NCBI GenBank assembly: GCA_902778455.1
Contig: CACYXR010000024.1
Span: forward strand, 1 to 64,000
Reading direction: 5' to 3'
DNA: 64,000 nt
From: an uncultured Selenomonadaceae bacterium
GTDB taxonomy: Bacteria; Bacillota; Negativicutes; Selenomonadales; Selenomonadaceae
Shown here: piece by piece, positions 2,111 to 60,338 of the stretch
Position numbering within the stretch: the stretch's first letter is position 1
Layout: each line of letters starts with the position of its first letter
Notes under the pieces: generated by a model
What the model saw: the letters and a program-made list of their open reading frames with translations, nothing else
What the model was told of the DNA's origin: nothing
Database searches by the model: none
Program-made: the position numbers and the translations under genes

Positions 2111-3745
2111 TCAATTCGCCCTTGTCTCAATGACCTTGTCCAAAACCTCTGCCAATTTTGCCGTCAATGCCTTCCGTTCGTATTTTTGAATCCCCTGACT
2201 GGAATATACAATAGATTCGCCATTTTTCCACTTTGTATATTCCTCAAGAATCATCTGCTTAATCTCAGGAATCTGCGTTCCCAAAAATGCTTTACCATGT
2301 CCCGTTTCCCTCAAAAGCAAATCTACCACTCCGTCCTTCGGGGCCAAAGCCAGAATGGGCCGTCCGCTGCGGAGGTATTCAAATATTTTCCCGGTAAATA
2401 CCATTTTGCTTGCAGGATCATCTCCCACTAAAAGCAACAATAAATTAGAATCCAGATTTGAAGCAATCGCTTCTTTATGAGGTATATAGGGTACATACTG
2501 GAAAATCGCTTCCATTTCATATTTCTGCACCAATTCAAAGCCTGTTTCGGACGCGCCTACGACACGAAAGATTATCCGTGAGAGATCCACCTCATTTGCA
2601 TCGCTTAATTCTTTAATGGCCTGCAATATAGGCGCTATGCTTCTCTGCTTCGAATACAACAACCCACTGTAGTTAATGGTGAATTTTTCCTTCCGATGTA
2701 TCTCATCCGTTATGTCTGAAAAATCCATCTCGTCATATCCATTCGTTATCCCCACAAATTTTTCTTGTGGAATTTGAAAACTTTTTGTATAGATCGGAAT
2801 CGTTTCTCCCACTGTTACAATATTGCAATCCGCATGATGCAACAAAATGGATTCCAACTCCCTGCTCAATTGATGGAACGGATTGTTCATATCCAACAAC
2901 GGGGTCGTCGGATTCATCGTCCACATATCCCGATAATCCGCCACCCAAGGAATTCCATATTTTTCCTTGAGGTGAAAACCTGCTAAATGTGCACTGTAAG
3001 GACCGGAGGTGGTGTAAACGGCACGAAAATCCGCCAAGTTCACACACTCCTCAATAAACTTCGTCACATGATAAGTCCAAAAAAGTGCCCAACATGGAAA
3101 CACCAGCAAATATTCTATTCCGCTTTGGGTCTGAAGAATCTTCTCGAATAACCGCACGGCTTCCTGTTTTTTGCAAAGCGCCCCGAGCAAAAATTCCAGT
3201 AAATCACGCGCTTGACTTTCATCGATGCTTGAAAGCTGCCTGGTGCCTACCAAGTCTGAAATTCGTACGACCTCCACATCCTCGGGAATTTCCGCAATTT
3301 GACTCTCATCGGACCAATTCCAATACACGGGAGCAGTCTCTGCGGAAATCACCGTGGGTTTCCAATCGAACATGGGAAGATATTTGGCGAATTTCAAAGA
3401 CCGAAATACGCCGGAGCCGGACAGAGGAGGGAAATAGTAGGCAATCATCAAAACGCGCTTTGCCGTTCTGTTTGCAGCCAATTCTGTCGGCCTCTTCCCC
3501 TTTGACCGTTCGCGCAGGGCAAAGAGATTTTGAAGGATTTCCGGCTGATCCGGATGCTGCTTCAAAGACCTTCGATACAATTCTTTGGCATTCTCGTAAT
3601 CTTCGCAAAGCGTGCAAACCTTCCCCATCAAGTTCTGAACATCCCATCGGTCGAGATCCTTTGGGGATATGGATGCCATGGCATCGATAGCCTCCAACAG
3701 ATTGCCTTCATTGACCATTTGTTCTAAGTGCTTGAGTTCCTTCAT
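2111..3745 (-). CDS. TPR-glycosyltransferase (GT4-like)
   Basis: The first 75 or so residues are helical and TPR-like (one repeat near YENAKELYRRSLKQHPDQPE). They are followed by a two-domain GT-B glycosyltransferase of the group-1 type, with a nucleotide-sugar-site region around KIFEYLRSGRPILALAP near the C-terminus. It probably adds a sugar to a surface glycan or protein; donor and acceptor are unknown. ATG 3745 is preferred over the upstream ATG 3766 because GGAG lies 11 bases before it. The gene looks visibly more AT-rich than the housekeeping genes on both sides and interrupts an otherwise conserved setting, which suggests horizontal gain. Confidence 0.75.
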   Translation of the reverse strand: MKELKHLEQMVNEGNLLEAIDAMASISPKDLDRWDVQNLMGKVCTLCEDYENAKELYRRSLKQHPDQPEILQNLFALRERSKGKRPTELAANRTAKRVLMIAYYFPPLSGSGVFRSLKFAKYLPMFDWKPTVISAETAPVYWNWSDESQIAEIPEDVEVVRISDLVGTRQLSSIDESQARDLLEFLLGALCKKQEAVRLFEKILQTQSGIEYLLVFPCWALFWTYHVTKFIEECVNLADFRAVYTTSGPYSAHLAGFHLKEKYGIPWVADYRDMWTMNPTTPLLDMNNPFHQLSRELESILLHHADCNIVTVGETIPIYTKSFQIPQEKFVGITNGYDEMDFSDITDEIHRKEKFTINYSGLLYSKQRSIAPILQAIKELSDANEVDLSRIIFRVVGASETGFELVQKYEMEAIFQYVPYIPHKEAIASNLDSNLLLLLVGDDPASKMVFTGKIFEYLRSGRPILALAPKDGVVDLLLRETGHGKAFLGTQIPEIKQMILEEYTKWKNGESIVYSSQGIQKYERKALTAKLAEVLDKVIETRAN

Positions 3746-39696: not shown

Positions 39697-40749
39697 ATGT
39701 CAGATTCCCTGTACGGCGGACGCAGGCCTCAGCTTCTCGCCGTAGACGACGATAATATGAACCTGCGAATGATTTCCCGCGCGTTCGAAGCCGAGGCGGA
39801 CGTGACCACGGCTCCCTCCGGGCCGGAAGCCATTTCGTGGCTCGCGTCCCATGAAGCCGACCTCGTGATGCTTGATTACCGTATGCCCGTCATGGATGGA
39901 TTCGACGTGCTGCGCATACTGAAAAAGAACCCGCGCACCGCCGATATCCCAATCATCATACTGACCGGCGATATCAGCGTCGAATTGGAAGCCAAGGGCT
40001 TCATCGAGGGCGCGACCGATTTCGTGCGAAAGCCCTTCATCCCCGATGTCATGCGCCAGCGCGTGCGCCGCGTGCTCCGCTACGAATACCTGCAGGAAAA
40101 TCTCGCGCAGGAGGTCAAGCGGCAGACAGCCCTCGCGGAAAAACGCCTAAAGGATAGCCAGGAGCTGTTCAAGGAAATGGCCATCGCCCTCGCCAAGACC
40201 ATCGACGCGAAGGACACTTACACCCACGGCCATTCCGAGCGCGTCGCGACCTATTCGCGGATGCTCGCGAAACGGGCCGGAGACGACGAGGAAGCGCAGG
40301 AGCGCATCTACTATATGGGACTCCTGCACGACATCGGAAAAATCGGCGTCGCCGGAACCATCATCAACAAAGCCAGCAGACTGGACGACGATGAATTTCA
40401 ATCCATCCAATCCCATCCCATCATCGGCTCCGAAATCCTGAAAAATATCAGCCAATTCCCCGACCTTTCCATTGGCGCGCGCTACCATCACGAGCGTTAC
40501 GACGGCAAAGGCTACCCGGATCATCTGGCAGGCGAGGCAATTCCCCGAGCCGCCCGAATCATTGCCGTTGCTGACACTTATGACGCCATGACATCCAGCC
40601 GCAGCTACCGCAAAGGATTGCCCCAGGACGTCGCCCGCGCCGAGATCGAAAAAGGGAAGGGCACCCAGTTCGACCCTGAATTCGCCGACCTGATGATTGC
40701 CCTGATTGACGACGACAAGGACTACACTATGCGCAGCCGCGAGGAATAG
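39697..40749 (+). CDS. Response regulator with HD-GYP phosphodiesterase domain
   Basis: The N-terminal receiver domain (about residues 1-125) has AVDDDN, the phosphoacceptor aspartate in LVMLDYRMPVMDGF and a FVRKPF lysine. A coiled linker leads into an HD-GYP domain with the HD pair in LLHDIGK, HPIIGSEIL, HHERYDGKGYP and VADTYDAMTS. HD-GYP proteins usually hydrolyse c-di-GMP to GMP. No cognate histidine kinase is next to it. The metF start follows 15 bases later, so the two could share a transcript. Confidence 0.93.
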   Translation: MSDSLYGGRRPQLLAVDDDNMNLRMISRAFEAEADVTTAPSGPEAISWLASHEADLVMLDYRMPVMDGFDVLRILKKNPRTADIPIIILTGDISVELEAKGFIEGATDFVRKPFIPDVMRQRVRRVLRYEYLQENLAQEVKRQTALAEKRLKDSQELFKEMAIALAKTIDAKDTYTHGHSERVATYSRMLAKRAGDDEEAQERIYYMGLLHDIGKIGVAGTIINKASRLDDDEFQSIQSHPIIGSEILKNISQFPDLSIGARYHHERYDGKGYPDHLAGEAIPRAARIIAVADTYDAMTSSRSYRKGLPQDVARAEIEKGKGTQFDPEFADLMIALIDDDKDYTMRSREE

Positions 40750-50402: not shown

Positions 50403-53400
50403 TTACGCTTCGCCGCTCCTCCATTTCCGCCAAATCTCGTTGTACTGCGCCTCTATCTCGCGGATATAACGTGCGGCATCCATCACCGGCGACTGCTCCA
50501 GCATGTTCCGGAGATTTTTGTGCAGCGTGTCCAACAGCTCTTCATCCAGCGCCAGCGCGACCGCCTTCTCTACATACTCGTCCACAGTTTCCGCCGTCAG
50601 TTCCCCAAGGCCGACATTCTTCAAAATCCCATAGCTGAACCGTGAACTGCGCCGTTCACCGTACCGCGACACTACCGGCACGCCCATATAAAGCGTGTCG
50701 CAGGTTGTCCCGCCGCCCGGCCATGGATAGGTGTCAAGGGCAATATCCACATCAAGATATCGTTCCATAAAATTCTTCGTGGCTGGTTCAAGAATTACCC
50801 GCTCCATCGGAAGCCCAAGCGCTTTCAACCGTTGATATGCCGCTTCCGCCGCCTCAGGGCTCTCCAGCACAAAGCTCTTCAAAAGCAGCCTGGAGCGCGG
50901 AACGCGACGAAGGATTTCCTTCCACGCAAGGAGCATTTCATCCTTGACCTTCGCGTACTGGTTGAACACACCGAAAAGCACCCACCCTCGCTGCTTGGAC
51001 GGAGCCCCTTTGGAGGCAGGAAAAATTTTTTTCCCGATGACCGCATAACAGAATTGCGCTGTAACATAAAGCGGTTTTTCCACAAAATACGCTTCACGCC
51101 CCTCTCCCGGCGGATCGACAAACGAATCCGTCAGGAAATAATCCATGGCATCCAATCCCGTCGTCGCCATATACCCCAGCCCAGAAATCTGAATCGGCGC
51201 AGGTTTCCATGCGAAAACCGAGACCGCGCTGTTCGCCGTATGTCCTGCGAGGTCAAACAAAATATCGATCTCATCCTCATATATCACCTTTGCAGCCGCT
51301 TCCGGCTGGGTGCGGTCGATATCCCGCCATACATCCGCCATCTGCTTCACGACTGCCGACTCCGGAACCTTTTCCGCCGCGGAGTTGTAAGCATACACCT
51401 CAAACCTGGCCCTGTCCCGGAACATCAAGAACGGGACAATAAAATGGGACATCACATGCCCACCGAAATCCGGAGAGACGTAGCCGATGCGAAGTCTGCT
51501 GTGCTCCGGCCTTTGCCGGGAATGGCTGTACCGCTTGATTCCCTGGAATATTTCCGAATAACGCTTGCTTTGGTTGAACAAATCCTGCGACGGAATATCG
51601 TCGTTATTATGAGAAAGCAAAAAACCTCCGTAGGCAATGGCCCGGCTAAAAATCGTATCCCCCAAAAGATAGGCTTCCGTATAAGCATGGAGGGATTTCT
51701 CGACCTCCCCCAGGATAAACATCAACCCTCCATATCGCATCCACACCTGTTGGCGAAGAAGATTGTCTTCCTGACTGCTGCCTACCGAATACAGCATCTG
51801 CTGATACGTCTTTGCCGCCGACAAAAGGAACAAACGCTGATCCTGCGAATATGCGAGCCATCCTAAAAGCTTCGCTCTTCCCGGCGGCTTCAGCTTTTCC
51901 GCGCGCCTCATCCAATACAAGCAATGCCGATCGTCTTTCAGGATGTAATACGCTTGTGCGACATGCACGACGGAATCCGGCAGATTGACACCGGCGAACA
52001 CAAGACGGCTGCCCATTGCCGCCGCTTCTTTCCAGCGCTTTTCGTCTCGCGCCCTTTGGAATCGCTCCCATCGGCATGTCAGGCTTTCCTTTTGCGTCTC
52101 TTCGTCCGCCGTTCGTTCCCATGCGACGAAAATATCGCCATACGCCTCTTCCAGCGCGTCCATATACCGCTGCGCATTCATCACCGCCGAAGATTCTATC
52201 TTCCACTGAAGCGTCAAATGTAGTTCTGTGAGCCGCTTTCGATCTTTCGCCAAGCCCACGGCCGCTCTGATATATGACGGCCAATCCGGAACGCAAAACG
52301 AATCCATTCCTATATTCATCAAGATACTTTCGCTTGCGCGTTCCGCATAAACGCGCCCTTTTCTCGCCACTACTGGGATTCCCATATAAAGGGCTTCGCA
52401 AACCGATCGTCGGCCTGTCCTCGGATACGTATCCAAGGCGATATCGACGCGCTCGTAATCCGCAAGATAGGATTCCGTCCAGGCAACGAGCTCGACACGC
52501 GACTCGTCCAATCCCGCTGCCTCCAATCGTTCCATCGCTTCCGTCCGTCGCTCCTTGTCAGAAAACGTTCCGTCCTGCACAAGCAGACGCGCGCCGTCCA
52601 CGCGGCGCAAAATTTCTGCCCATGCCCGAATCGCATCGTCCGTCACCTTTTCCCAACGTGCGAGCACACCAAACGTCAAATACCCGGCTTCCAGAACAGG
52701 CGCAGGCAATGAATACACTCTTGCGCTTTTGGGGCGCATGCAGCATATCTGGCTCTCCGGCAGACGAAGCAGCTTTTCCGAAAAGAACTTCTCCTCTCCC
52801 TTAGGCGCAGTATAAACATCCGTCAAGAAATAATCAACCGCGCTCGCCCCCGTCGTCCCCCGGGATTGTACGGCGCTCACCTGTATCGGCGCGGGCTTAT
52901 AGGCGAGAACGGGAAGTGCACTGTCAGCATTCCCCCCTGTCAAATCCACAAGGATGTCAATCCCGTCAACGTATATACACTCTGCCGCCTCCCGCGCCGA
53001 AAGGCCGGACAATTCTCTCCATGCCGTGGCCAAATTCACAATCGTAATGTTTTTATACACCGTCTTGCCCAATGCATACCCGTACACTTCAAAACGGTAT
53101 CGATCCGCATATCCAAAAAAAGCAGTGACCAATGAGAGATTGTCTTTTTCCTCCGACCCATGCAGGATATAGCCGACACGAAGCACATCATGATGTTCCG
53201 CCGCAGGATCGTGCGTAAAGGGGGAGCCATCCTCGGAAGATTCGTCAAGAAATTCTGGTTCGCGGCTTGGGCCTGCTTCATCGCCGGATTGCTCCTCTTC
53301 CGGCGCGGACTGCTCCCGCACGAACTTCTTCCAAATCCGGATATAGGCCTCCGTCAAATCCTTCCGATATTGCTCCATATTCATCAAGGGAGAGCGCCTC

Positions 53401-54974
53401 ATCATATCCCGGAGATTTTGCCGGAGCACAAGCAAAAGCTCCTCGTCCCCGGCCATCCCCACCGCTTTTTCCACATATTCTTCCGCAGTGTTTGCGACCA
53501 GCTCGCCCAAGCCCAGATTCATCAGCAAGCTTTTCCCGAACCGCCCGCCGTGATTCACGCCCGCCATCGTCACCACCGGGACGCCCATGAAAAGCGCGTC
53601 GCAGGTTGTCCCGCCGCCCGGATACGGGAACGTGTCGAGAGCGATATCCATATCCGCGTATTCCCCGAGATAGTCGCGGGAAAAACCTCTTGTCTCCACC
53701 CGCTCCCGTGGAATTCCCATCCGTTCCATTCGCGCCAGTGCATAAGCGCGATTGTCCGGCTCATCGAAAATCTTTCCCTTCAAGAGCAGCCGGGAGCCCG
53801 GCACCCTTGCCAGGATCTCCGCCCAGAGCCGAAGCGTCTCATCGGACATCTTCCCGAAATCATTGAAGCTGCCGAAGGTCACTGCACCGTTCCGACGGCA
53901 GGGGGGAGCCTCCGCCGGAAGCGGAGCAGCCCCGACGTCCGTATAGCAAAAATGTGTATGCGGCAGAACCAGCAGCTTTTCCGTAAACGCCTTCTGCGTT
54001 TCCTCATCGTCCAGATATACGTCTCCCAGGAAATAATCGATTGCCGAGAGCCCCGTCGACGCCCAATACCCGATGCCGGAAATCTGGATCGGCGCGGGCT
54101 TATATGCCATAATCGGCAGAGAATTCCCCATCGTATGCCCGCCGAGCTCCACAAGGATGTCAATCCCATCCTCGAAAATCCTGCTCGCTGCCTCCTCCGG
54201 TGAAAGGTTCCGAAGGTTCCGCCAGTAATCGACAGCCTTGGACAGGTCCAAGCTAAACTCGTCCTCTTCCCCCGTCATATATGCGTAAACCGTAAACGGC
54301 GTCTTGACATGCCCCAAAAGCATCGCCGTCGCAAACCGGAGCACCACATGATACCGCAAATCCGCAGAGATATAGCCGATCCGAAGCGGCCTTTCCCCGT
54401 ACCTCCGACGATGAGTGAACCGTTTCACATCCTTGAAATAATCGTTATACCGCGCCGCCGCCTCACGCTGTTCCTCCGGTGAAATCCCCGGCAGGTAATG
54501 AAGATCGTAAAGATAATTGCTGTACTCGCCTGCGCCAAGCTCCGGAGCAATCCTCGAAGCCTCCAGGTCATATTTCGCCGCTTCCCCCGGTTCCCCAAGC
54601 AGACGAAAGCAGCGTCCCAAAAGGTTGCAGACCCGCTCCCGAATCTGCGCGCCGGCGTTTTTGTCCTCCAAAAGCGACTCCAACGGCTCAAGCAGCGCCG
54701 CTCGCGCGCCTTTCATGTAAGCCACCCGCGCAGAAAGATACCGCGTATTCGGTTTTTCCGGCGCCAGTGCCTCCAGCTCTCCCAATGCCTTTTCCGCCGT
54801 ACCGGCGTCGTTCGTCTCGATTCCGAGGCTTGTCAACAACCCCAGCGCTTCCTCGCGGTCATAGGGCATAAACGCTTCGATGGCGTCCCGGGCCTTCTCC
54901 ATCGCGCCGCTCATCAACGCAGCGCACGCCTCGTCCCGAAGCCGCGTCGCTTCCTTTGCCTCCTGCTCGTTCAT
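50403..54974 (-). CDS. Giant protein with three O-GlcNAc-transferase-like (GT41) modules
   Basis: A 1523-residue protein. A TPR-like N-terminus (1-190) is followed by GT41 module 1 (about 197-552), module 2 (597-953), a TPR-like segment (965-1150) and module 3 (1160-1518). Modules 1 and 3 keep the key features: His in YISADLRYHV (209) and GYVSPDFGGHV (1173), the GGHT/GHTANS loop, Lys of FNDFGK (375) and FNQYAK (1342), and DTxPxPGGGTTCD. Module 2 keeps Lys 776 but has lost the histidine and has GRRSVCE in place of GGGTTCD, so it is probably inactive. It should glycosylate proteins, probably flagellin. Tandem GT41 modules in one chain are unusual. Confidence 0.85.
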   Translation of the reverse strand: MNEQEAKEATRLRDEACAALMSGAMEKARDAIEAFMPYDREEALGLLTSLGIETNDAGTAEKALGELEALAPEKPNTRYLSARVAYMKGARAALLEPLESLLEDKNAGAQIRERVCNLLGRCFRLLGEPGEAAKYDLEASRIAPELGAGEYSNYLYDLHYLPGISPEEQREAAARYNDYFKDVKRFTHRRRYGERPLRIGYISADLRYHVVLRFATAMLLGHVKTPFTVYAYMTGEEDEFSLDLSKAVDYWRNLRNLSPEEAASRIFEDGIDILVELGGHTMGNSLPIMAYKPAPIQISGIGYWASTGLSAIDYFLGDVYLDDEETQKAFTEKLLVLPHTHFCYTDVGAAPLPAEAPPCRRNGAVTFGSFNDFGKMSDETLRLWAEILARVPGSRLLLKGKIFDEPDNRAYALARMERMGIPRERVETRGFSRDYLGEYADMDIALDTFPYPGGGTTCDALFMGVPVVTMAGVNHGGRFGKSLLMNLGLGELVANTAEEYVEKAVGMAGDEELLLVLRQNLRDMMRRSPLMNMEQYRKDLTEAYIRIWKKFVREQSAPEEEQSGDEAGPSREPEFLDESSEDGSPFTHDPAAEHHDVLRVGYILHGSEEKDNLSLVTAFFGYADRYRFEVYGYALGKTVYKNITIVNLATAWRELSGLSAREAAECIYVDGIDILVDLTGGNADSALPVLAYKPAPIQVSAVQSRGTTGASAVDYFLTDVYTAPKGEEKFFSEKLLRLPESQICCMRPKSARVYSLPAPVLEAGYLTFGVLARWEKVTDDAIRAWAEILRRVDGARLLVQDGTFSDKERRTEAMERLEAAGLDESRVELVAWTESYLADYERVDIALDTYPRTGRRSVCEALYMGIPVVARKGRVYAERASESILMNIGMDSFCVPDWPSYIRAAVGLAKDRKRLTELHLTLQWKIESSAVMNAQRYMDALEEAYGDIFVAWERTADEETQKESLTCRWERFQRARDEKRWKEAAAMGSRLVFAGVNLPDSVVHVAQAYYILKDDRHCLYWMRRAEKLKPPGRAKLLGWLAYSQDQRLFLLSAAKTYQQMLYSVGSSQEDNLLRQQVWMRYGGLMFILGEVEKSLHAYTEAYLLGDTIFSRAIAYGGFLLSHNNDDIPSQDLFNQSKRYSEIFQGIKRYSHSRQRPEHSRLRIGYVSPDFGGHVMSHFIVPFLMFRDRARFEVYAYNSAAEKVPESAVVKQMADVWRDIDRTQPEAAAKVIYEDEIDILFDLAGHTANSAVSVFAWKPAPIQISGLGYMATTGLDAMDYFLTDSFVDPPGEGREAYFVEKPLYVTAQFCYAVIGKKIFPASKGAPSKQRGWVLFGVFNQYAKVKDEMLLAWKEILRRVPRSRLLLKSFVLESPEAAEAAYQRLKALGLPMERVILEPATKNFMERYLDVDIALDTYPWPGGGTTCDTLYMGVPVVSRYGERRSSRFSYGILKNVGLGELTAETVDEYVEKAVALALDEELLDTLHKNLRNMLEQSPVMDAARYIREIEAQYNEIWRKWRSGEA

Positions 54975-57882: not shown

Positions 57883-57911
57883 TTGATAGGACGTTTTTCA
57901 TGTTGTATAAT
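57883..57911 (+). promoter_or_regulatory. Sigma-A-type promoter of the ATP-grasp/HD-GYP gene
   Basis: TTGATA (57883-57888) is followed after exactly 17 bases by TATAAT (57906-57911), and the gene starts 34 bases later. It is the best promoter match in the window. Confidence 0.85.
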
Positions 57912-57944: not shown

Positions 57945-60338
57945 ATGAATTTTATTTTTATTTCTCCGCATTCCCCGCGAAACTACTGGCTGTTTTGCGA
58001 CCGCCTGAAAAAAAACGGCGTCACGGTGCTCGGCATCGGGGATATCCCTTACGATTCCCTGGAAAAGCATGTCAAGGACTCTTTGACGGAATATTATTAT
58101 GTCGAATCCCTGCAGGACTATGACAAAATGTTCCGTGCTGTGGCTTTTCTTTCGTTCAAATACGGAAAAATCGACTGGATCGAATCTCACAACGAGCTTT
58201 TCATCGAGCAGGACGCTCGTCTGCGGGAAGACTTCAATATCAAGACCGGCCTGCAGACGGCGGACATCGAACGGTTCCGCCTGAAGTCGGCTATGAAGCC
58301 ATATTTCCGAAACGCTCATATCGCCGCGCCCCGTCACGCTGCCATCCCCACCATTCGGGAGGCAAAAGCTTTTGCACGGAAAGTCGGGTATCCGGTCATT
58401 GTGAAGCCGGATATGGGCGTTGGCGCAAAGGACGTCCAACTGATTGAAACTGCCACCGAGCTGGAATGGTTCTTCTGGGAAAAATCCACCGTGCCATACA
58501 TTATGGAAGAATTTGTGCATGGCAACATCTATTCCTACGACGCGATCGTAAACCTGGACGGCGAACCCCTCTTTGAGTCAATGACGGCATGGCCGCCTTC
58601 CATCATGGAAATCGTCGCCAAACAGCTCGACTTCTCATACTATGTCGCGGCGGATATCCCTGACGACTTGCGGAACGCAGGGCGCGCCGCCATACGAACC
58701 TTCGGCATTCGGGGCCGCTTCATTCACCTGGAATTCTTCCGGCTGACCGAGGACCAGCCCCCTCTCGGCGCGGAAGGCGAGCTCGTCGCACTGGAAATCA
58801 ATCTGCGGCCGCCGAGAGGCTACGCCGTGGACATGATGAACTACGCACATTCCACCGACGCATACAAAATCTGGGCAGACATGGTCACCATCAACAAGTG
58901 CATCATCCCCAGACGCTCCGATCACCGCTTCTGCGTATTCGCGGGACGACGCAGCAGCCACGCCTATCTGCACTCCCATGCGGAAATCATCACGCGCTAC
59001 AAATCGAATATCGTGCTGCAAGAGACAATACCGCCCCAGCTGCATGCGCAGATGGGCAACTATATGTATTCCGCCCGCACACGGACGAAAGAAGAAGCGG
59101 CAGAATTCATCCGCTACGTGCAGACCCAGTTCAGCGAGAACGGACAGGCACGCCGGCTGCTGCTGAAGGATCTGAAGCCGGGCATGGTTCTGGTCCAGCC
59201 GATCGTCCTCCTAGACGGCAAGATTTTGATGGAAACCGGAACGAGAATGACGGAATTCGTCATCAGCCTCCTGCGCGACCCAAACTACATGGAAAAAGTG
59301 CTCCCGGAAGGCTCCTCTCTGGACGATTTGATGCTGACCGTAAACGTCCCCCAGGAGATCAAAACGGTTTCCGTGGAAGACCATCCGAAGGCGGAAATGA
59401 CGGACTCCCCATACGCGAAATTACCGCCGCCGGACCCGAAGACCGACAAGCTTCTCGACGCGGATTATGTGCGGACATATCAGGAAGTCTTCCAGGAACT
59501 GGAGCAGCTGCTGAACCCGAACACCATCCACCGGGGCCTCAATCTGGACGCCCTCGGCCAGCTGATTTCCGACCGCAAGCTTGCGAGCCTCTGCAACGAT
59601 TCCATGGCCATCACCCAAATCCACAACATGGACTGCGAAGGCTCCTATCTGATCCATCACAGCCTGCACGTCGCAATCCTGGCCGGCCTGACGGGAAAAT
59701 GGATGCGCTGGCCGCGGGAATCCTACGAGCGCCTGCTGCTTGCGGGACTGCTGCACGACGTCGGCAAACTGAAAATCGCCAAAGACATCCTGAACAAACC
59801 GGGAAAACTTTCTCTGTCGGAAATGAAAATCATGCAGAACCACCCCACCTACGGTGTGGAAATCCTGGCGAAATCCGGTCTCTCCACCGAATCCGACCTC
59901 ATCGCCGGCGTGCTCCAGCACCACGAGCGCGGGGACGGCTCCGGCTATCCGTCCGGGCTCAAGAACGATATGATTTCCCCCTTCGGGAAAATTCTCGCGA
60001 TTCTCGACATTTACGACGCTATGGCCACGAACCGCGTATACGCGCACAAGGTGTCGCCCTTCGACATCTTCGACCGCCTGAGCATGGACATGACCGCCGG
60101 AAAGCTCGACGAGGCCTATTGCGTGCTGTTCATGCGGGAAATGGGCCGCTCGCTGACCGGAAACTGGGTGCGGCTGAGCAGCGGCGAAAAAGCGAAGATC
60201 ATCTATATCGACCAAAACAAAACGAATGCCCTGCCCATCGTACAGACAACCGAAGGCAAATTCTACGACCTGACCACCGACGACTCAAAGAAGGTGGAAG
60301 AACTGCTCACCATCAAAGAAGCGACGTTGGGAAAATAG
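57945..60338 (+). CDS. Fusion of an ATP-grasp domain and an HD-GYP domain
   Basis: A 797-residue cytosolic protein. Residues 1-105 are a pre-ATP-grasp fold; residues 106-395 are an ATP-grasp domain with Lys in VIVKPDMG (154), the acidic pair in IMEEFVHG (188-189) and metal-binding EINLRPPRG (284). Residues 405-445 resemble the short module found before HD-GYP domains (KDLKPGMVLVQPI). The HD-GYP domain (about 540-740) has HHSLHVA, LLHDVGKL (HD at 604-605), HPTYGVEIL and HHERGDGSGYP, all intact. This joins a carboxylate-amine ligase to a c-di-GMP-hydrolase fold, which I do not know as a described architecture. The ligated substrates are unknown. Confidence 0.85.
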   Translation: MNFIFISPHSPRNYWLFCDRLKKNGVTVLGIGDIPYDSLEKHVKDSLTEYYYVESLQDYDKMFRAVAFLSFKYGKIDWIESHNELFIEQDARLREDFNIKTGLQTADIERFRLKSAMKPYFRNAHIAAPRHAAIPTIREAKAFARKVGYPVIVKPDMGVGAKDVQLIETATELEWFFWEKSTVPYIMEEFVHGNIYSYDAIVNLDGEPLFESMTAWPPSIMEIVAKQLDFSYYVAADIPDDLRNAGRAAIRTFGIRGRFIHLEFFRLTEDQPPLGAEGELVALEINLRPPRGYAVDMMNYAHSTDAYKIWADMVTINKCIIPRRSDHRFCVFAGRRSSHAYLHSHAEIITRYKSNIVLQETIPPQLHAQMGNYMYSARTRTKEEAAEFIRYVQTQFSENGQARRLLLKDLKPGMVLVQPIVLLDGKILMETGTRMTEFVISLLRDPNYMEKVLPEGSSLDDLMLTVNVPQEIKTVSVEDHPKAEMTDSPYAKLPPPDPKTDKLLDADYVRTYQEVFQELEQLLNPNTIHRGLNLDALGQLISDRKLASLCNDSMAITQIHNMDCEGSYLIHHSLHVAILAGLTGKWMRWPRESYERLLLAGLLHDVGKLKIAKDILNKPGKLSLSEMKIMQNHPTYGVEILAKSGLSTESDLIAGVLQHHERGDGSGYPSGLKNDMISPFGKILAILDIYDAMATNRVYAHKVSPFDIFDRLSMDMTAGKLDEAYCVLFMREMGRSLTGNWVRLSSGEKAKIIYIDQNKTNALPIVQTTEGKFYDLTTDDSKKVEELLTIKEATLGK

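Follow-up and report, generated by a model that had tools for sequence, protein, structure and literature searches.

The L-amino-acid ligases RizA, BacD/YwfE and BL00235 are known as single proteins, HD-GYP domains serve more often as outputs, and few HD-GYP proteins have, to our knowledge, an identified input signal. In L-amino-acid ligases, single changes (BL00235 P85, BacD W332) are reported to alter substrate choice (PMC6920838). In the HD-GYP protein PmGH, for which the metal ligands are listed, K317A brought no substantial loss of activity whilst D183A abolished it, and a Y/F subgroup of HD-GYP, with a Y/I-L-L motif and a predicted binuclear centre, is described alongside it (PMC4159591).

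The window (the whole 64,000-nucleotide stretch of DNA, from a rumen bacterium of the Selenomonadaceae, that was analysed) joins these two types of enzyme in a single open-reading frame. Both domains are complete in the 797-aa product, as an earlier note on this DNA had read it, and the features of the gene are as follows.

57883..57911, plus strand: promoter-like site TTGATA-17-TATAAT, 11 of 12 consensus bases, called by consensus match alone
57945..60338, plus strand: fused gene, ATP-grasp ligase-fold half and HD-GYP half, 797 aa, from the uninterrupted open-reading frame, domain searches and models
57945..59132, plus strand: residues 1-396, ATP-grasp fold with all three domains present, its nearest structures the L-amino-acid ligases RizA/BacD/BL00235
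59133..59144, plus strand: junction codons 397-400; in a gapless alignment the TAA of the unfused locus L013 lies opposite codon 397, followed by its 12 intergenic nt
59145..59645, plus strand: residues 401-567, N-terminal part of the HD-GYP module, with a low-confidence stretch at residues 470-490 (pLDDT <50)
59646..60068, plus strand: residues 568-708, HD-GYP catalytic core with H572, H604-D605, K608, H633, H659-H660 and D688; Y568 replaces the eighth metal ligand
60165..60335, plus strand: residues 741-797, beta-strand region at the C-terminus, shared with and conserved in stand-alone HD-GYP relatives

The open-reading frame starts with ATG at 57945 and stops with TAG at 60336-60338, and AAGGAGG upstream of it, read directly, is a good ribosome-binding sequence. 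Both flanking genes lie on the minus strand, which together with the putative promoter bears out the strong promoter of its own that had been proposed for the gene. On one side are two GT2 glycosyltransferases and a very long GT41 protein, on the other a 128-aa open-reading frame, FliS and FliD. The earlier note had drawn attention to these flagellar and glycosylation neighbours; they are truly present in the window, but we dropped them as functional evidence since other fused loci do not have them in the flanks available, and in the flanks examined (several of them short) the one neighbour in common was an adjacent GT2 gene, in the closest relative only. A 1523-aa protein of the window (50403-54974, minus strand), beside FliD/FliS, has six stretches matching glycosyltransferase family 41 (O-GlcNAc-transferase type) and is possibly a multi-domain flagellin glycosyltransferase. 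A second HD-GYP domain lies at 40192-40680 (plus strand) within a 391-aa open frame, and is one of the ten HD_5 matches of the genome.

For the ATP-grasp half Pfam alone was weak and fold comparison was decisive. PF02786 matched above its cut-off at residues 124-175 (23.7 vs 19.8 bits); PF02655, the type originally suggested, fell just under its cut-off (22.8 vs 23.2), and the assignment holds for ATP-grasp but not for that family, the fold being of the L-amino-acid-ligase kind. Residues 1-398 were modelled with AlphaFold on an alignment of 30 sequences (mean pLDDT 92.6), and the model was compared with the PDB using Foldseek, where L-amino-acid ligases topped the list: RizA was best (4wd3, E 2.3e-24, TM 0.72), with YwfE/BacD (3wnz, 3wo1, 3vmm) and BL00235 (3vot), and RizA was again best in a sequence-profile search of the PDB (E 6.9e-13). 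The window copy keeps K154, E188/E189, E263, E284, N286 and R288, which are expected from the fold to bind ATP/Mg; the ATP-binding lysine, acidic pair and C-terminal Glu/Asn/Arg cluster of the RizA/BacD type are all present. Judged by the model, residues 1-396 are a three-domain ATP-grasp of the L-amino-acid-ligase fold, with RizA/BacD-type ligases as nearest neighbours.

The HD-GYP module spans residues 400-797, with a PF13487 match (5.9e-24) at residues 569-708. Its best sequence match in the PDB was PmGH (4mcw, 2.6e-22), followed by a 3'3'-cGAMP phosphodiesterase (5z7c, 3e-21). Seven of the eight PmGH metal ligands are kept (PmGH/fused: H189/H572, H221/H604, D222/D605, H250/H633, H276/H659, H277/H660, D305/D688), and further matches are K225/K608, D308/D691, R314/R697 and the GYP motif at 667-669. 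The HD motif and metal-binding His/Asp residues (H572, H604-D605, H633, H659-H660, D688) occur in all complete fused copies, and the HHExxDGxGYP signature reads H659-HERGDGSGYP-669. The carboxylate ligand of PmGH E185, which belongs to the E/D-T-G trinuclear subgroup, is missing: the window copy has Y568-L569-I570 at this position where the remaining complete fused copies have Y-L-L, and the fused site looks intact for a member of the Y/F subgroup. Hydrolysis of c-di-GMP by the fused protein is nevertheless not assured, because the catalytic D183 of PmGH aligns with a glycine and E185 with Y568; PmGH K317 corresponds to A700.

The fusion was present in eight of the 11 genomes of the genus (Schwartzia-like Selenomonadaceae; G000, G001, G003, G004, G006-G009), where G000 is the genome of the window and the seven others carry the fused protein at 66-98% identity. 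The G001 copy is partial and ends at a contig end, leaving seven complete fused sequences. An unfused neighbouring pair occurred in eight of the 11 genomes (the G001 and G008 pairs are incomplete or interrupted), and unfused copies stood alongside the fusion in five fused-bearing genomes, with a partial one in G001; the window genome has both. Most genomes of the genus are fragmented assemblies, as an assembly or sequencing artefact or a chance juxtaposition would have it, but the same fused frame recurs in eight separate genomes at 66-98% identity, five of which (and G001 in part) also have unfused copies. Since seven further genomes of the genus have it, the fusion is neither an assembly error nor a product of chance, and we give this explanation virtually no credence.

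Searching 381 Negativicutes genomes (102 genera) with the junction region at E 1e-30 or better, which reaches only homologues of the ATP-grasp/HD-GYP pair, gave no match outside the genus; 189 genomes of the family matched one half or the other, and among the matches listed none spanned the junction outside the genus. The architecture had been put forward as undescribed; of 5.39 million open full-text papers just three mention both ATP-grasp and HD-GYP, and by title and abstract none of the three reports it. Within that literature we found no earlier report of an HD-GYP protein with an enzyme-derived N-terminal half, and within the genomes searched we found it in one genus only.

The origin of the fusion can be followed in an unfused row in the window genome (locus L013), which consists of a PF00756 esterase (227-1024), an ATP-grasp gene (1037-2227) and an HD-GYP gene (2240-3430), the latter two in one frame with TAA and 12 nt between them. 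In the gapless alignment the L013 HD-GYP start codon falls at about codon 401-402 of the fused gene, whilst in other genomes of the genus the unfused pair has TGA and a shifted frame. As both genes are in one frame and 12 nt apart in some tandem loci, the fusion needs the loss of just one stop codon. In IQ-TREE trees of each half all fused copies formed one clade (100/100), and fused and tandem copies together formed another (100/100 in the ligase half, 100/99 in the HD-GYP half); the history is best read as an HD-GYP gene that joined the ligase locus once, a pair that was then duplicated and a single fusion in one of the copies. Support was weak (81/71) for how the tandem and the fused HD-GYP copies branch relative to each other, so that gene conversion may have taken place among them. 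The tandem HD-GYP genes also form two subgroups (L010, L015, L017 vs L009, L013, L016, L018), a split that is at odds with the tree of the adjacent ligase gene and may reflect gene conversion or replacement.

Several stand-alone Selenomonadaceae HD-GYP relatives (from the set L118, L120, L122-L126 and L129) are without one HD-motif residue (e.g. LDIGK, IDCGK, TEIGK) and have the GYP part intact; fused and tandem copies retain the HD motif that these have lost. The esterase adjoins the tandem ligase wherever the contig reaches far enough. In the flanks available we found no esterase homologue near the fused loci, several of which lie close to contig ends, and the adjacent PF00756 gene that is a trait of the unfused ligase family is thus missing from them as far as these flanks extend. 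A long open frame in G090 had looked like an esterase/ATP-grasp fusion, which was rejected because the matches are in different frames.

The unfused ligase belongs to a wide family with 449 matches in GTDB contigs. The best 80 of these were retrieved (L033-L112), and came mostly from gut/rumen Bacillota, Bacteroidota, Spirochaetota and Fusobacteriota, with 52-58% identity for those from outside the genus. In 45 of the 80 retrieved loci (four of the 45 are tandem loci of the genus) there was a PF00756-type esterase gene nearby; it lies upstream in Selenomonadaceae and in many Clostridia, and on the downstream side in Paludibacteraceae and some others. Within 6 kb of the ligase, 15 of the retrieved loci had genes of the Cys/Met PLP-enzyme family and 11 had cysteine synthase, these being raw counts from loci that are related to each other and hence not independent; a few were near a MetQ/MetI transporter, a sulphate transporter or LarE. 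This gut/rumen ATP-grasp ligase-like family is thus sometimes near CysK and MetY-type enzymes, and such neighbours suggest, no more, a role of the parent ligase near sulphur-amino-acid metabolism. Rfam gave no riboswitch tying ligase loci to sulphur metabolism or c-di-GMP in 11 ligase loci or the window.

We compared fused and tandem copies at 115 ligase columns, each at least 97% conserved among 81 unfused ligases. In the seven complete fused sequences 88 of 805 cells were changed (10.9%), whereas six tandem copies from the genus differed in just two of 690 (0.3%). W86 is replaced by F or Y in all seven (F in the window copy), and other changed family-invariant positions of the fused ligase half are 10, 159, 164, 214, 230, 290, 291 and 294, those at 290-294 adjoining the conserved N286/R288. 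W86, T164, L230, A290 and T294, invariant in the family and kept in the tandem copies, are changed in some or all fused copies; the window copy and that of another species have R in place of G291, and one relative has A in place of G160. The ATP/Mg core residues, in contrast, are kept in all seven complete fused sequences. In ten species pairs with both copies, the mean dN of the ligase half was 0.172 for the fused and 0.046 for the tandem copies (about 3.7-fold), whereas that of the HD-GYP half was 0.161 and 0.165; dS was near saturation and rates were therefore compared through dN only. In the ligase half of all fused copies dN was well below dS. By these sequence measures the fused ligase half is still under selection, with constraints other than those of its unfused twin.

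The changes at family-invariant residues, with G291 replaced by R in two species and G160 by A in one relative, are what might be seen if the ligase half were losing function and the protein were an HD-GYP phosphodiesterase with an inert N-terminal passenger; set against full length, no stops, invariant ATP/Mg residues and dN well below dS in all fused copies, this is very improbable. Nor do we think it likely that two enzymes were merely tethered, with both activities kept and no allosteric coupling, as a by-product of stop-codon loss between adjacent genes. Such an accident could be reached from one-frame tandem genes 12 nt apart, where one stop loss is enough, and it is in keeping with the weakly structured residues 470-490 (pLDDT <50), N-terminal to the catalytic HD-GYP core; but the fused gene has been kept while the genus diverged and the rate has changed in the ligase half only, an asymmetry that tethering does not predict.

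The fused protein might instead be a working ligase with a new substrate range, regulated by its HD-GYP half through cyclic dinucleotide binding or hydrolysis. Single changes at BL00235 P85 and BacD W332 are reported to alter substrate choice (PMC6920838), and here changes lie near the conserved N286/R288 loop of a ligase whose fold is complete and whose ATP/Mg core is kept in all seven complete sequences. The gene row with HD-GYP is, moreover, older than the fusion, and purifying selection on the ligase half is equally expected of a ligase with a new substrate. W86, however, could not be linked to known specificity positions, since alignment of the N-terminal region to BL00235 gave no usable match for P85; the relaxed half is the ligase and not the HD-GYP, and HD-GYP domains are in general more often outputs, so that we regard a regulated ligase as doubtful, if somewhat less so than mere tethering.

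We favour a reading, with a probability of roughly 0.45, in which the HD-GYP phosphodiesterase has taken over the ligase half as its input domain. The ligase as input and the HD-GYP as output is more likely, and fits better than the ligase tied to c-di-GMP suggested in the earlier note, because the invariant residues of the ligase have drifted (10.9% vs 0.3%), whilst the HD-GYP half has its ligands preserved and a rate like that of its unfused paralogue. The sequences show that in the genus ancestor an HD-GYP gene was placed directly behind an L-amino-acid-ligase-like ATP-grasp gene, often itself after an esterase gene; the pair is present twice, and the reading frames of one copy were joined, with a single origin. 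On the favoured reading the unfused copy would keep the ancestral ligase job and the fused copy would have turned into a signalling protein, whose ligase half may still bind ATP/Mg together with an amino acid or peptide, possibly turning over slowly or not at all. A ligand-driven conformational change there would set the activity of the attached phosphodiesterase, which would lower c-di-GMP or a related cyclic dinucleotide. Turnover of c-di-GMP is plausible, and a network built on it expected, in this organism because its genome has 28 GGDEF, 10 EAL and 10 HD_5 matches; PilZ gave no match in genome G000. The full-length model leaves the relative placement of the two halves unfixed (pTM 0.55).

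More tentatively, a duplicated ligase may have been captured as the sensor of a cyclic-dinucleotide phosphodiesterase; the charging of its active site with ATP and an amino acid, for which a sulphur amino acid is one candidate, would then govern c-di-GMP breakdown directly. We know of no enzyme-derived nutrient sensor of this kind described for c-di-GMP signalling. If ligand binding by the ligase half does control the phosphodiesterase, the protein would illustrate the conversion of a metabolic enzyme into a c-di-GMP sensor, and the fusion may link amino-acid metabolism to signalling. Here the candidate input is an enzyme with its closest unfused relative in the same genome, which makes a residue-by-residue comparison possible, and such ligand control would also open a way into a ligase/esterase pair, as yet uncharacterised, that many gut/rumen bacteria have and that is sometimes near sulphur-amino-acid genes.

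Compared with the known systems, the whole ligase half has its three-domain ATP-grasp fold in common with RizA (4wd3), BacD/YwfE (3vmm, 3wnz) and BL00235 (3vot), with Foldseek E-values of 2.3e-24 to 1e-18 and TM of 0.69-0.73, yet identity is only 14-18% and, set against that type, the fused copies have changed residues invariant in their own ligase family. PmGH (4mcw) resembles the HD-GYP half in seven of eight metal ligands, K225, D308, R314 and the GYP motif, and differs in E185 (Y568), K317 (A700), D183 (glycine) and an entirely other N-terminal domain. V-cGAP3 (5z7c), the 3'3'-cGAMP phosphodiesterase 3 that was the second-best PDB match of this half, likewise has a tyrosine at the E185 position, but its N-terminal domain differs from that of the fused protein and cGAMP specificity is not inferable from sequence. 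The unfused esterase/ATP-grasp/HD-GYP row (L013 and others) has the same domains in the same order, about 59-67% identical and sister to the fused copies in both trees, but as separate genes, with the esterase upstream and the ligase residues as in the wide family.
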